Below, one piece after another: positions 19,208 through 24,227 of a stretch of DNA of 32,166 nucleotides. The stretch is from assembly GCF_001696715.1 (NCBI RefSeq), contig NZ_MBFM01000004.1, forward strand, positions 353,046 to 385,211, read 5' to 3'. Positions within the stretch are counted from its first letter, which is position 1. Each line of letters opens with the position of its first letter. The translations under genes were made by a program, and so were the position numbers. The notes below the pieces were generated by a model. The model saw only the letters and a list, made by a program, of their open reading frames with translations, was not told the origin of the DNA and did no database searches. This DNA is from Thauera phenolivorans (GTDB lineage Bacteria; Pseudomonadota; Gammaproteobacteria; Burkholderiales; Rhodocyclaceae).

Positions 19208-19996
19208 TCAGCCGAACAGGGCGCGAAGGCCCTCGCCCGGATCCGCCACGCGCATGAAGGCCTCGCCGACGAGGAAGGTCTGCACCGCGTTGTCCCGCAT
19301 CAAGGCGACGTCTTCGGGCGCAAGAATGCCCGACTCGGTGACGACGATGCGCTCGGCCGGCACCCGCTGGCGCAGTTCGAGGGTGGTCTGCAGCGAGACC
19401 TCGAAGGTGCGCAGGTTACGGTTGTTGATGCCGACGAGCGGCGTCTGCAACTGCAGCGCGAGCTCGAGCTCGTCGCCGTCATGCACTTCGACCAGCACCG
19501 CCATGCCGTAGTCGCGCGCGATCGCCTCCATCTCCTGCATCTGCGCGAGGTCCAGGCTGGCGACGATGAGCAGGATCGCGTCCGCCCCCATCGCACGCGC
19601 CTCGTGCACCTGCCAGGGGTCAACGAGGAAGTCCTTGCGCAGCGCGGGCAGCGCGCAGGCGGCACGCGCCGCCTGCAGGTACTCGGGCGCGCCCTGGAAA
19701 TACTGGCGGTCGGTCAGCACCGAGAGGCAGGCGGCGCCGGCGCGCTCGTAAGCCGCGGCGATCTCCGCCGGTCGGAAGTCCGCGCGGATGACGCCCTTGG
19801 ACGGGCTCGCCTTCTTGATTTCGGCGATCACCGCCGGACGGCCGGCGGCGTGCCGCGCGCGGATCGCGCCGACGAAGTCGCGCGGCGCGGGCTGGGCCTC
19901 GGCCTCGGCGCGCACCACGGTGAGCGGCCTCGTGGCGCGCGCGGCGGCGACCTCCTCGACCTTGGTCGCACAGATCTTCTGCAGGATGTCGCTCAT
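19208..19996 (-). CDS. trpC: Indole-3-glycerol phosphate synthase
   Basis: Fourth reaction of tryptophan synthesis: ring closure of CdRP to indole-3-glycerol phosphate. 262 residues, a monofunctional TIM barrel with no fused TrpF. Motifs: [15 protein letters not shown] (catalytic Lys), [36 protein letters not shown], and VVTESGI near the C-terminal phosphate site. The ATG overlaps the trpD stop (ATGA), implying translational coupling. The next gene is tamB after 6 bp; trpF, trpB and trpA are not in the window, so the trp pathway is split, as is common in betaproteobacteria. Confidence 0.97.
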
Positions 19997-21036
19997 CACG
20001 CCCCCCCGAAACGACGGGTGTATCGCACGAACTCGTCGAGCTTGGCGCGCGCCGCCCCCGAGGCGAGGATCTCGCGCGCGCGGCCGACGCCTTCCTCGAT
20101 CGAACCGACCAGGTTGGCGGTGTACAGCGCCACGCCGGCGTTGAAGACGACGATGTCGCGCGCCGGACCGGGCTTGTTGTCGAGCACGCCGAGCACCACC
20201 TCGCGCGACTCGGCGGCGTCCTCGACGCGCAGGTTGCGGCTGCTCGCCATCGGCAGGTCGAAGTCCTCGGGATGCACCTCGTACTCGCGCACCGCGCCGT
20301 TCTTCAGCTCGCCGACCATGGTGGCGGCGCCGAGGCTGACCTCGTCCATGCCGTCCAGGCCGTGCACCACCATCACGTGGTCGGCGCCGAGGCGCTGCAT
20401 CACCCGCGCCAGGATGCCGACGAGGTCGGGGTGGAAGACCCCGAGCAGGGTGTTGGGCGCGCCGGCGGGGTTGGTGAGCGGGCCGAGGATGTTGAAGATC
20501 GTGCGCACCCCCATCTCGCGCCGCACCGGGGCGACGTTCTTCATCGCGCTGTGGTAGGCCGGCGCGTACATGAAGCCGATGCCGGTGGCCTCGATGCACT
20601 CGCCGACCTGCTCCGGGCTCATGTTCAGATTGACCCCGAGCGCCTCGATGAGGTCCGCCGCACCCGACTTCGACGACACGCCGCGGCCGCCGTGCTTGGC
20701 GACCCGCGCCCCGGCAGCGGCGGCGACGAAGATCGTGGTGGTCGAGATGTTGAAGGTGTTCGAGCCGTCGCCGCCGGTGCCGACGACGTCGAGGAAGTGC
20801 TCGTGTGGCGGCGGCACCACCACCTTGGTGGACTTCTCGCGCATCACCGTGGCGGCGGCGGTGATCTCGTCGATGGTCTCCTTCTTCACCCGCAGGCCGG
20901 TCAGGATCGCGGCGGTCATCACCGGCGAGATCTCGCCGTCCATGATCTGGCGCATCAGCGACAGCATCTCGTCGTAGAAGATCTCGCGGTGTTCGATGGT
21001 GCGTTGCAGTGCCTGCTGCGGCGTGATCATGCTCAT
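19996..21036 (-). CDS. trpD: Anthranilate phosphoribosyltransferase
   Basis: Transfers phosphoribose from PRPP to anthranilate, the second committed step of tryptophan synthesis. 346 residues. PRPP-binding glycine-rich loop [48 protein letters not shown] and [13 protein letters not shown] are all typical. The start is either the ATG at 21036 (MSMITPQQ) or the second ATG two codons later; the first is used. 47 bp after trpG and overlapping trpC by four bases. Confidence 0.97.
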
Positions 21037-21083
21037 CTGGATGGTCCTTGCATTCAGCTCAAGTGCGACGCGAAAACGCTGTC

Positions 21084-21650
21084 TCAGCGCCGTTCGAGGA
21101 AGTTCCGCAGAAGATCGTGGCCGTTCTCGGTCAGGATCGACTCGGGATGGAATTGAACGCCTTCGACCTCGAGCGTCTTGTGACGCACGCCCATGATCTC
21201 GCCGTCGTCGGTCCAGGCGGTGATCTCGAGGCAGTCGGGCAGGCTCTCGCGCTCGATCGCGAGCGAATGATAGCGGGTGCAGACCAGCGGGTTCGGCAGG
21301 CCGCGGAAGACGCCGCTATCGGTGTGGTGCACCGGCGAGGTCTTGCCGTGCATCATCCGCCGGGCATGGACGATCCGCGCGCCGAAGGCCGCGCCGATGC
21401 TCTGGTGGCCGAGACAGACGCCGAGGATCGGCAGCTTGCCGGCGAATTCGCGGACCGCCGCCACCGAGATGCCGGCCTCGGCGGGGGTACAGGGCCCGGG
21501 AGAGATGACGAGCTGCTCGGGATGGAGGTTCGCGATCTGTTCGAGGGTGATCTCGTCGTTGCGGAACACCTTCACCTTTGCCCCCAGTTCGCCGAAGTAC
21601 TGCACGAGGTTGTAGGTAAAGCTGTCGTAGTTGTCGATCATCAGCAGCAT
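21084..21650 (-). CDS. trpG: Anthranilate synthase component II (glutamine amidotransferase)
   Basis: Supplies ammonia from glutamine to TrpE; such proteins often also serve p-aminobenzoate synthesis as PabA. 188 residues. The class I amidotransferase triad is visible: C79 in LGVCLGHQ, H168 and E170 in QFHPES. The oxyanion motif [12 protein letters not shown] and N-terminal [19 protein letters not shown] match TrpG/PabA. The ATG at 21650 is chosen for AGGAA eight bases upstream; the frame stays open further but homologues start here. 179 bp separate it from trpE, an unusually wide gap for this operon that contains a hairpin. Confidence 0.96.
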
Positions 21651-21733
21651 GGTCGTTGTTCCTGTTCGGACGGCGGAGCGGGCGCGCATGCGCCTGTCCG
21701 GGCCCGGGGGTCTCGCGATCGAATGATTATTGC

Positions 21734-21768
21734 CGTGCGGTCGGATGCTGTGCAGCATTCACCGCACG
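21734..21768 (-). repeat. Hairpin in the trpE-trpG gap
   Basis: Outer arms CGTGCGGT (21734-21741) and ACCGCACG (21761-21768) pair perfectly. An inner stem ATGCTG/CAGCAT with a 2-nt loop sits inside, separated by a small internal loop. On the minus-strand transcript it comes about 60 nt after trpE and is not followed by a U-run. The rest of the 179-bp gap shows no convincing gene. It may be an RNA processing or stability element between trpE and trpG. Confidence 0.5.
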
Positions 21769-21829: not shown

Positions 21830-23302
21830 TCAAAACCGCGTGTCCAGCCCGCCCTCGGCGATCTCCGCCGCGCGCAGCATGGCCAGCGCCTTGTTCTGGG
21901 TTTCCTGCCATTCCGAATCGGGGTCGGAGTCGGCGACGATGCCCGCGCCGGCCTGGACATGGATCTGGCCGTCCTTGACCACCGCGGTGCGGATCGCGAT
22001 CGCGAGGTCCATGTCGCCGTGGAAGCCGAGATAGCCGACCGCGCCGGCATAGATGCCGCGCTTGACCGGCTCGAGCTCGTCGATGATCTCCATCGCCCTC
22101 ACCTTCGGTGCCCCCGACACGGTGCCCGCGGGGAAGGTCGCGCGCAGCACCGCGAGCGCGTCGAGCCCCTCCTGCAGCCGGCTCTCGACGTTGGAGACGA
22201 TGTGCATCACGTGGGAGTAGCGCTCCACGCTGAAGCGCTCGGTGACCTTCACCGAGCCGACCTGCGACACGCGGCCGGCGTCATTGCGGCCGAGGTCGAG
22301 CAGCTGAAGGTGCTCTGCGAGTTCCTTCTCGTCGGCGAGCAGCTCCTTCTCGAGCGCCAGGTCCTCGGCCAGGTTCGCGCCGCGCCTGCGGGTGCCGGCG
22401 ATCGGCCGCACGGTGACGTTGTCGTCCTCGAGCCGCACCAGGATCTCGGGCGAGGCGCCGACGACATGGAAGTCCTCGAGATTGAAGTAGAACAGGTAGG
22501 GCGAGGGGTTCAGCGAGCGGATCGCGCGGTAGAGCGCCATGGGGCTGGCGGCGTAGGGCTTGCTCATGCGCTGGGAGAGCACCACCTGCATGACATCGCC
22601 ATCGACGATGTACTGCTTGGCGCGCCGCACCGCGTCCTTGAAGGCCGCCTCGCCGAAGCTCGAAACCGCCGGCGCCGACTCGGCGCGCGACTCCTGCGGG
22701 ATGTTCGCCGGCGCGCGCAGGCGTGCGAGCAGCTCGCGCAGGCGCTTTTGGGCGCGCTTGAAGGCACCCGGCACCTCGGGCTCCGCATACACGACCAGGG
22801 TCAGCTTGCCGCTGAGGTTGTCGACGATCGCCAGTTCCTCGGACAGAAGCAGCAGGATGTCCGGCGTACCCAGGGTGTCGGTCTTGTCGGTTTTCGCCAG
22901 GCGGGGTTCGATGTAGCGCACCGTGTCGTAGCCGAAACAGCCGACCAGGCCGCCGGCAAAGCGCGGCAGGTGTTCGCGCGGCGGCACCTTGATGCGGTTC
23001 ATGAACTCGGCGACGAAGTTCAGCGGGTCGCCGTAGTCGCGCCGTTCGACGAGGCGGTTGCCGGTCAGCAGCAGGGCTGAACGCTCATAGACCTCGATGC
23101 GGGTGGGCGAACTCAGACCGATGAAGGAATAGCGGCCGAAGCGCTCGCCGCCCTGCACCGACTCCAGCAGGTAGGTGTAGGGCTCGTTGGCCAGCTTGAG
23201 GTAGATCGAAAGCGGGGTATCGAGATCGGCGAAGGTCTCGAGGGTGACCGGGATGCGGTTGTAGCCCTCGGCGGCGAGGGCGTTGAAGTCTTGTTCGAGC
23301 AT
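21830..23302 (-). CDS. trpE: Anthranilate synthase component I
   Basis: Converts chorismate (with ammonia from TrpG) to anthranilate, the first committed and Trp-inhibited step. 490 residues. The N-terminal feedback domain includes [19 protein letters not shown] (the LLES element of Trp binding). The C-terminal chorismate-binding domain includes [54 protein letters not shown] and [17 protein letters not shown] five bases before the ATG supports the start. Preceded by a 247-bp gap that holds a candidate Trp-rich leader peptide and pairing RNA segments, and followed by a 179-bp gap to trpG. Confidence 0.97.
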
Positions 23303-23370
23303 GGACGCTCCACGTAAAACGATTCGGTTCGGACGGTGCTGTTGCGGGTCCGGGCCGGCGCCTGAGTGCG

Positions 23371-23442
23371 GGCGGGGCGGCCAGCCACCCGCGAGGGTGG
23401 GATGTGCTCAGTGGCCCAGAGGCCAGCGCCAGCCGCCCCGCC
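23371..23442 (-). promoter_or_regulatory. Candidate trp attenuator RNA upstream of trpE
   Basis: On the minus-strand transcript, GGCGGGGCGGC (23442-23432), lying over the first two Trp codons of the leader peptide, is perfectly complementary over 11 bp to GCCGCCCCGCC (23381-23371) after the leader stop. The enclosed loop contains a separate perfect hairpin CCACCC-TCGC-GGGTGG (23400-23385). Part of the downstream arm (GGCCG) can instead pair with CGGCC farther on, near 23350-23355. A ribosome stalled at the Trp codons would block the long pairing. The only U-run is UUUU just before the trpE ribosome site, so control could act on transcription or on translation initiation. Confidence 0.45.
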
Positions 23443-23509
23443 AGCAGGCCTGCTGGGCGGAGGGAGCGGTGGCGGGGAAGCGGTCCGAAACCCGGTTTGC
23501 GAGCGTCAC
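23408..23509 (-). CDS. Putative trp operon leader peptide, 33 aa
   Basis: A short frame in the gap between gph and trpE starts with GTG at 23509 and stops at 23408. Its end reads CWRGGWRWPLGH: three Trp codons within seven (23441-23443, 23429-23431, 23423-23425), while Trp is normally near 1% of residues. Its stop is 105 nt before the trpE start. The ribosome site is weak (GAAGAA about 7 nt upstream); the frame is open farther upstream into gph but with no better start. Clustered Trp codons directly before trpE are the hallmark of attenuation leader peptides. No sequence family is recognised. Confidence 0.5.
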   Translation of the reverse strand: MTLANRVSDRFPATAPSAQQACWRGGWRWPLGH

Positions 23510-23549
23510 GATGCGTTCTTCGATGGAGTCCTGACGGGGGGTGCGCGGC

Positions 23550-24227
23550 TCACGCCGGAGCGATGCGGTCCAGCGCCTGTAGTGCGTTCGATAGTAGCCC
23601 ATCGCATTCGATAGTGTCCACCGGCACCCCCTCCGAATACCCATAGGTCACCAGCAGCACCGGCATGCCCGCGCCGCGCGCGGCCAGCGCGTCGTTGGCG
23701 GAGTCGCCGATCATCAGCGCCTCGTCGGCCGCCACGCCGAGCAGACCGCAGGCATGGACCAGCACTGCCGGGTCGGGCTTCTTCACCGCCAGGGTGTCGC
23801 CGCTGACCACCGCGTCGAAGTGATGGGCGATGCCGACCCGCTCGAGCAGCGGCAGAGTGAAGGCCTCGGCCTTGTTGGTCACCACCGCCAGCCGGAGCCC
23901 GCCCGCGCGCATCGCCTGCAGGGTGTCGATCACCCCCGGGTAGATGCGGGTGCACTCGCCATTGACCACCGCATAGTGGCCGCGGAATACATCGACCGCG
24001 CGCTCGATCTCGGCCTCGGTGGCGCTCGTGCCCTCGGTCATGCAGCGCCGCACGAGATGGGGGATGCCCTTGCCGACGAAGCCATGCACCTCCTCCTGGC
24101 TGCGCGGCGGCCGGCCGAGCTCGGTGAGGGTGCGGTTCGCCGCCTCGGCGAGATCCACGATGGTGTCGAGCAGGGTGCCGTCGAGGTCGAACAGCACCGC
24201 GCGCACCGGGTAGCGCAGCGCCGTCAT
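23550..24227 (-). CDS. gph: Phosphoglycolate phosphatase (HAD family)
   Basis: Dephosphorylates 2-phosphoglycolate, produced in DNA repair or by RuBisCO oxygenation. 225 residues. HAD motif I is [13 protein letters not shown] (nucleophile D14, acid D16), motif II VVTNKAE, motif III KKPDP, motif [20 protein letters not shown] helical cap (C1) occupies about residues 25-95. The ATG overlaps the rpe stop (ATGA). The order rpe-gph-trpE is a widely seen proteobacterial arrangement. The C-terminus ends 40 bp before the proposed trp leader peptide. A general HAD phosphatase role cannot be excluded. Confidence 0.93.

Follow-up and report, generated by a model that had tools for sequence, protein, structure and literature searches.

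Attenuation by termination of transcription is classically taught on the trp operon, and E. coli carries an attenuator of the terminator type. The translational attenuators of erm and cat are drug-sensing, and in these the hairpins next to the stall site switch. A survey of proteobacterial attenuators from 2004 reportedly covered mainly the alpha and gamma classes. A 2010 survey of premature terminators states that its own method misses translational attenuators and that the method of Merino and Yanofsky could detect them (PMC2965389). According to a 2016 survey of proteobacterial regulons, TrpR is conserved across many groups of Gammaproteobacteria but missing from other classes; the survey calls the E. 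coli trp leader a case of "translational attenuation" (PMC5343134). Closest in design is the LEU element upstream of actinobacterial leuA, for which the source describes a run of Leu codons pairing with the leuA Shine-Dalgarno (SD) sequence and proposes a pseudoknot (PMC1262725).

Here we analyse the region upstream of trpE in a stretch of 32,166 nucleotides from Thauera phenolivorans (hereafter the window). The genes surrounding the gap are ordered rpe, gph, trpE, trpG, trpD, trpC, tamB, msrA and a Lrp/AsnC-type gene, with 247 nt between gph and trpE (Table 1). An earlier note on this DNA had placed in this gap a 33-codon frame with a run of Trp directly at its stop. The frame is present and reads VTLANRVSDRFPATAPSAQQACWRGGWRWPLGH followed by the stop; the Trp run is set back from the stop, however, since four residues (P-L-G-H) intervene in the C-terminal end, CWRGGWRWPLGH. 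Also as described in that note, two 11-nt arms are perfectly complementary, a 6-bp hairpin lies beyond the leader stop, and no long U-run follows the leader hairpins in the gap of the window. The gap alone folds no better than chance (z=0.22; 111/200 shuffles at least as good). Rfam returned no match in the window at the gathering cut-off and none in 23250-23600 at E<=1, the T-box and RF00513 included. The start of the leader lies in a conserved AUCGUGAC-like context, both in the window (23505-23512) and in the group-1 loci, group 1 being the group of relatives that contains the window. In the 25 sequences of group 1 the leader start is not preceded by a clear SD, and the leader may be initiated by coupling to gph or without an SD. 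In the trpE SD, UGGA is invariant and the next G nearly invariant across 25 sequences. The small UGGCC-NNNN-GGCCA hairpin is nearly invariant across the 25 group-1 sequences of alignment A1, where its inner four pairs are standard in 24 or 25/25 and its outer pair in 23/25; the number of compensatory changes is 0.

Table 1. Features of the trpE upstream region and neighbouring genes, in window coordinates. P1 is the putative stem between the leader start and the trpE ribosome-binding site (RBS).
Feature	Position	Strand	Remarks
gph, phosphoglycolate phosphatase, upstream neighbour	23550..24227	-	NCBIfam NF009695 and TIGR01449 over cut-off
trpE, anthranilate synthase component I	21830..23302	-	TIGR00564 over cut-off
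trpG, trpD, trpC, downstream of trpE	19208..21758	-	GATase, Glycos_transf_3, IGPS
Trp leader ORF, 33 codons and stop, GTG start	23408..23509	-	similar frame in relatives
Leader Trp codons 23, 27, 29	23423..23443	-	23443-23441, 23431-23429, 23425-23423
Small hairpin UGGCC-NNNN-GGCCA	23412..23425	-	last Trp codon to just 5' of stop; alignment A1
Post-stop hairpin	23385..23400	-	six complementary pairs; five at probability 0.72 in window fold
Arms proposed in the earlier note, 23442-23432 and 23381-23371	23371..23442	-	11-nt perfect complementarity
P1 5' strand, upstream of and over first leader codons, including start codon	23481..23531	-	window MFE fold; covariation
P1 3' strand, stretch before trpE including SD	23303..23357	-	window MFE fold; covariation
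trpE Shine-Dalgarno GUGGAG	23308..23313	-	

The TrpE of the window was searched against 150 genomes of the same family. There was a match in 145, the window's own included, and 142 upstream regions were taken (loci L082-L223, likewise including the window's own). In each, Trp residues were counted over the final 14 codons of a small ORF upstream of trpE. At least three Trp were found in 70/142 regions, compared with 1/142 on the antisense strand and ~0.7/142 expected from Markov shuffles, which bears out the earlier assignment as a Trp leader. With a threshold of at least two Trp the figures are 109/142, 12/142 antisense and ~10.8 expected, and 33/142 family regions have no such ORF. The C-termini in the family are of several types (WRGGWRWPLGH, SWPAGH, AEAWPWRPWR, NEWHGWRRWRP, WWRSPRQH and others); therefore, the Trp cluster is kept whilst the remainder of the leader changes. 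Beyond the family, at least two Trp occur in 38/59 regions from other families of the order versus 2/59 antisense (60 regions from 138 genomes with a match, L270 being too short to examine). For the class the count is 10/29 versus 3/29 antisense, among the best 29 of 86 matches. The named loci give 52/79, a count made without antisense control and for which L032 is too short. Moreover, TGG occurs 491 times in the leader frame versus 27 and 25 times in the other frames of 178 leaders, these being preselected for at least two Trp. By this comparison of sequences, the frame in the window is a conserved candidate Trp leader before trpE.

In four loci (L003, L105, L111 and L113) the leader frame is recognisable and holds a single Trp near its end (GGCGGRSWLGC or GGCGGRSWLLA); the putative Trp sensor of these loci may be decaying. 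Five Burkholderiales loci (L072, L074, L075, L076 and L080) share a [DG]RGAWPW ending, which is near to the EAWPWR type of the family.

Pairing was assessed by swap tests, in which the duplex energy of two segments is calculated once with both taken from the same genome and again with partners exchanged between genomes. In the family, 108/142 regions passed (at least two Trp, a trpE start found and a gap of 40-150), from which 99 non-redundant sequences were kept. The leader start window spans -115 to -50 from the leader stop and the trpE RBS window -45 to 0; leader start codons were set individually within group 1. Native combinations of leader start and trpE RBS reach -25.8 kcal/mol, compared with -22.0 kcal/mol for swapped (p=8e-10, n=99) and -22.6 kcal/mol for shuffled segments (p=3.5e-7, n=99). 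Among the same 99 sequences there was no swap signal for two control stretches at the end of gph (p=0.51 and 0.65), for the Trp cluster with the trpE RBS (p=0.92) or for the leader start with the post-stop segment (p=0.63). Native pairing is weaker than shuffles between the leader start and the trpE coding start (p=0.0006, n=99), and weaker than swaps between the post-stop segment and the RBS (p=0.008, n=99). A scan with 26-nt windows placed the best signal between -80 and -55 from the leader stop and -36 to -11 of trpE (z=-7.3), and around it the signal drifts in antiparallel fashion, as a stem should produce. Weaker links (z about -3) connect the middle of the gap with the Trp cluster and with the region after the stop, and neighbouring windows on the same side, within the leader start or the RBS, pair worse than swaps (up to z=+7.5). 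The family signal between leader start and trpE RBS is z=-9.9 on the sense strand versus -6.9 on the antisense strand, a difference to be expected if G-U pairs in RNA count. By group, the sense signal is z=-4.8 in group 1, -2.8 in group 2, -2.2 in group 4, -2.7 in group 5 and -4.6 in ungrouped sequences. In group 3 (n=7) the standard window yielded no swap signal (z=+0.4); its leaders are shorter, so that their start may fall outside this window. When swaps were confined to nearest neighbours, the native combination was the better one in 101 of 142 pairs and the worse one in 38 (p=1e-9); in the class of 70-80% identity the difference did not reach significance (native better in 20, worse in 16, p=0.13). 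The comparison of genomes shows the leader start to be complementary to the trpE RBS and to covary with it, and we refer to this putative stem as P1.

P1 was not returned by RNAalifold when 25 group-1 sequences were aligned with MAFFT; the 8 pairs that it found, none of them compensatory, comprise the small hairpin close to the stop plus three pairs in the RBS. When the two strands were aligned separately and joined by a linker, the consensus energy was zero or near zero in all five groups and no better than permutations. We regard this test as uninformative, either since the register is shifted by bulges or owing to the constraint that was applied. Scanned position by position, group 1 reached no more than moderate scores (best +3.2, worst -2.8). 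An operator at the DNA level was also considered as the source of the complementarity. This is unlikely, because the sequences diverge between species whilst complementarity stays, and because the sense strand scores better.

The pairing of leader start and trpE RBS recurs outside the family. Of 72 named beta- and gammaproteobacterial loci (L010-L081), 38 passed, a set that may include members of the window's family; here z=-8.1 for the best of three windows and -3.4 for the weakest (n=38; without a control stretch). The order and class searches provided 48 regions with a leader, of which 7 had an unusable gap; the remaining 41 give z=-10.1 for the best and -4.1 for the weakest of three windows, with an upstream control of -0.75. 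For the combined distant set z=-12.5, or -7.8 when the last ten codons are left out (n=76, non-redundant, L237 excluded), whilst the controls give -1.3 (upstream) and -2.2 (leader start with trpE coding start; n=76). A combined rerun of family and distant loci retained 160/177 sequences after removal of redundancy and L237. In the distant set the Trp cluster also pairs with the RBS, more weakly than does the leader start (z=-4.9 vs -7.8). Perfect Watson-Crick helices of at least 8 bp are found natively in 32/99 family, 7/38 named and 15/41 order and class sequences (L237 included in the last), compared with 5%, 2% and 5% of swaps, respectively. Examples are TCATAATTTTC/GAAAATTATGA in L011, CTTCGAAGGC/GCCTTCGAAG in L031, CTCCACAAC/GTTGTGGAG in L199 and CGCAAAAAC/GTTTTTGCG in L143. 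L237, from one genome of the order, contains a 27-nt perfect inverted repeat that joins leader positions -59 to -33 from the stop with trpE -35 to -9; the stem seems here to have been taken over by a repeat element that was inserted.

We calculated the energy required to open the trpE RBS. The family mean is 11.7 kcal/mol with the leader, 6.6 kcal/mol without its 5' part and 7.2 kcal/mol when gph sequence from the same genome replaces the 5' part (n=99). On folding calculations only, closure of the trpE RBS by P1 would thus amount to a mean of about 5 kcal/mol. Removal of the leader alters RBS opening by <0.5 in 12% of 178 leaders. In the window itself, the minimum free energy (MFE) fold joins the two strands of P1 with pair probabilities of 0.1 to 0.5, and RBS opening is 13.2 when free, 8.8 without the 5' part and 12.8 with gph sequence in its place. 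Taken alone, P1 of the window does not reach significance for either opening (p=0.065) or the duplex (p=0.26). The case for P1 is therefore carried by the comparison of relatives and is weak for the window sequence alone.

Ribosomes were represented by equilibrium models with a fixed footprint. In the family, one ribosome on the first Trp codon lowers modelled RBS opening by 0.37 kcal/mol; together with one queued ribosome the total decrease is 3.33 kcal/mol, and with two queued 4.8. In the window a single stalled ribosome gives a modelled value of 13.8, which becomes 12.9 when one further ribosome queues behind it and 9.2 when two do. The same model gives a decrease of 2.05 with one ribosome (p=1e-4) and 5.75 with one queued in the order and class set, and of 1.54 with one ribosome in the named set (p=0.14). 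Over all sets, the longer the estimated distance between the leader start and its first Trp codon, the smaller the one-ribosome effect (Spearman -0.34, p=5e-6). Masking of the first 30 nt, intended as a neutral control, lowered opening in the family alone (by 1.29, p=5e-4); an overlap of the mask with P1 may be the reason. As one stalled ribosome hardly opens the RBS in the family, queueing must be assumed. Opening of the RBS by stalled and queued ribosomes is a possible mechanism according to these models.

The earlier note had proposed a different switch, in which the arm over the Trp codons pairs with the arm after the stop and stalling releases the downstream arm. Its 11-nt complementarity is perfect in the window and its arms pair in the window MFE fold with a probability of about 0.5. 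Moreover, the Trp cluster and the post-stop segment pair slightly better than shuffles in the family (p=0.019, n=99) and, among the distant sequences, better than swapped segments (z=-3.5, n=76). However, these arms do not covary in the window's own family (swaps p=0.63, n=99; z=+0.2, n=84), and we regard this switch as highly improbable. The comparison of orthologous gaps that was suggested as its check did recover the Trp clusters, but the arms that covary are the leader start and the trpE RBS, and not those proposed. This covarying pairing is absent from the earlier note and extends past the coordinates that it covered.

Intrinsic terminator-like sites show no excess in the family gaps (6/99 vs 6.0 expected). 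Therefore, the output is likely translational or Rho-assisted, as had been anticipated from the missing U-run, and the simplest reading is that the leader is read out at translation initiation, perhaps with Rho polarity. Alternatively, the leader may govern Rho-dependent or cryptic intrinsic termination before trpE, with the leader:RBS stem forming part of that switch. Rho requires no U-run, and terminator-like sites in the distant loci are somewhat above shuffles (9/60 vs 4.3 expected). Attenuation of trpE and trpGDC has been published for P. putida, as cited in PMC8297930, and a figure legend of the latter paper reports premature 3' ends by a potential uORF at P. aeruginosa trpGDC under one condition. 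Yet the family count speaks against such termination, as does the position of the covarying 3' strand, which covers the trpE RBS, and we consider attenuation of transcription unlikely here.

It could also be argued that P1 is constitutive and merely insulates trpE from translation by gph readthrough, the Trp codons acting in some other way such as through a trans-acting peptide. P1 closes the RBS in the model without any ribosome, and an alphaproteobacterial leader peptide, peTrpL, works in trans (PMC7298713). Against this, the Trp-rich ORFs are conserved over many genomes and the leader start lies inside P1, so that leader translation should affect P1. Constitutive insulation is thus quite improbable.

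Taken together, we favour a ribosome-mediated Trp attenuator whose output would be trpE translation initiation, controlled through sequestration of the RBS by P1. We give this reading, which includes a presumed response to Trp, a probability of roughly 0.7 on the basis of sequence comparison and folding models. When Trp is present the leader would be translated fast and then be left empty, allowing P1 to form; trpE would be poorly translated and, by polarity, so would trpGDC. The start codon of the leader itself also lies within P1, so that closure of the stem would be self-locking. When charged tRNA-Trp is scarce, a ribosome would stall at the leader Trp codons and the following ribosomes would queue over the leader start. 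The 5' strand of P1 would thus be masked and trpE could be translated.

More tentatively, and at somewhat less than even odds, we hypothesise that such leaders are widespread in beta- and gammaproteobacteria as queue sensors, in which the RBS pairs with the leader initiation region, and that they replace TrpR together with the terminator-type attenuator. A switch of this type would read the ribosome occupancy of the first leader codons and not a choice between adjacent hairpins. TrpR was over the Pfam cut-off in 0/150 family genomes, with one weak match containing stops. If true, many beta- and gammaproteobacteria sense Trp by the same kind of leader peptide, yet control translation initiation. 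Trp control in a family without a TrpR over the cut-off would thereby be accounted for, and a long-range stem of this sort would escape searches for terminators or local hairpins. The sequence rule, a leader start complementary to the trpE RBS, is testable in any of these species.

Leader-peptide attenuation is a known kind of regulation. From amino-acid leader attenuators the locus has a conserved ORF with Trp codons, and a coupling between the RNA of leader and gene that was detected by swap tests and not by RNAalifold. From translational attenuators it would have an SD sequestered by the leader, as suggested by computed opening and by covariation over the family. Titles and the openings of abstracts revealed no translational Trp attenuator before a betaproteobacterial trpE; subscription papers lay outside this search and an earlier description is possible. 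Subject to that literature, we rate the pairing of leader start with trpE RBS as a new layout.

The enteric trp attenuator (E. coli trpL, RF00513) is similar in having a short ORF with clustered Trp codons before trpE as a presumed stalling sensor. It differs in that the window has no RF00513 match and the family no excess of intrinsic terminators. Across the class, RF00513 was over cut-off in 0/274 genomes, with a weak match somewhere in the genome in 41/274, whilst the E. coli control was positive. Moreover, E. coli (one genome) lacks a stem between leader and trpE RBS: opening of its RBS is 1.75, and the duplex of trpL with the RBS is no better than shuffles. The P. putida trpE/trpGDC system (Olekhnovich and Gussin 2001) shares the gene and attenuation, as judged by the title of that paper. 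The LEU element is alike in carrying a run of regulatory codons within an upstream ORF and in a base stem that involves the structural gene's SD. There, however, the Leu codon run itself pairs, whereas here it is mainly the start of the ORF; in the family the Trp cluster and RBS show no pairing of the LEU kind (p=0.92). For the LEU element, moreover, a pseudoknot is proposed and the amino acid is Leu, compared with a putative long hairpin and Trp in our case. Lastly, the erm and cat attenuators likewise sequester an SD that is opened by a ribosome stalled on a leader ORF, but here the presumed signal is charged tRNA-Trp and the strand to be masked lies upstream of the stall site.
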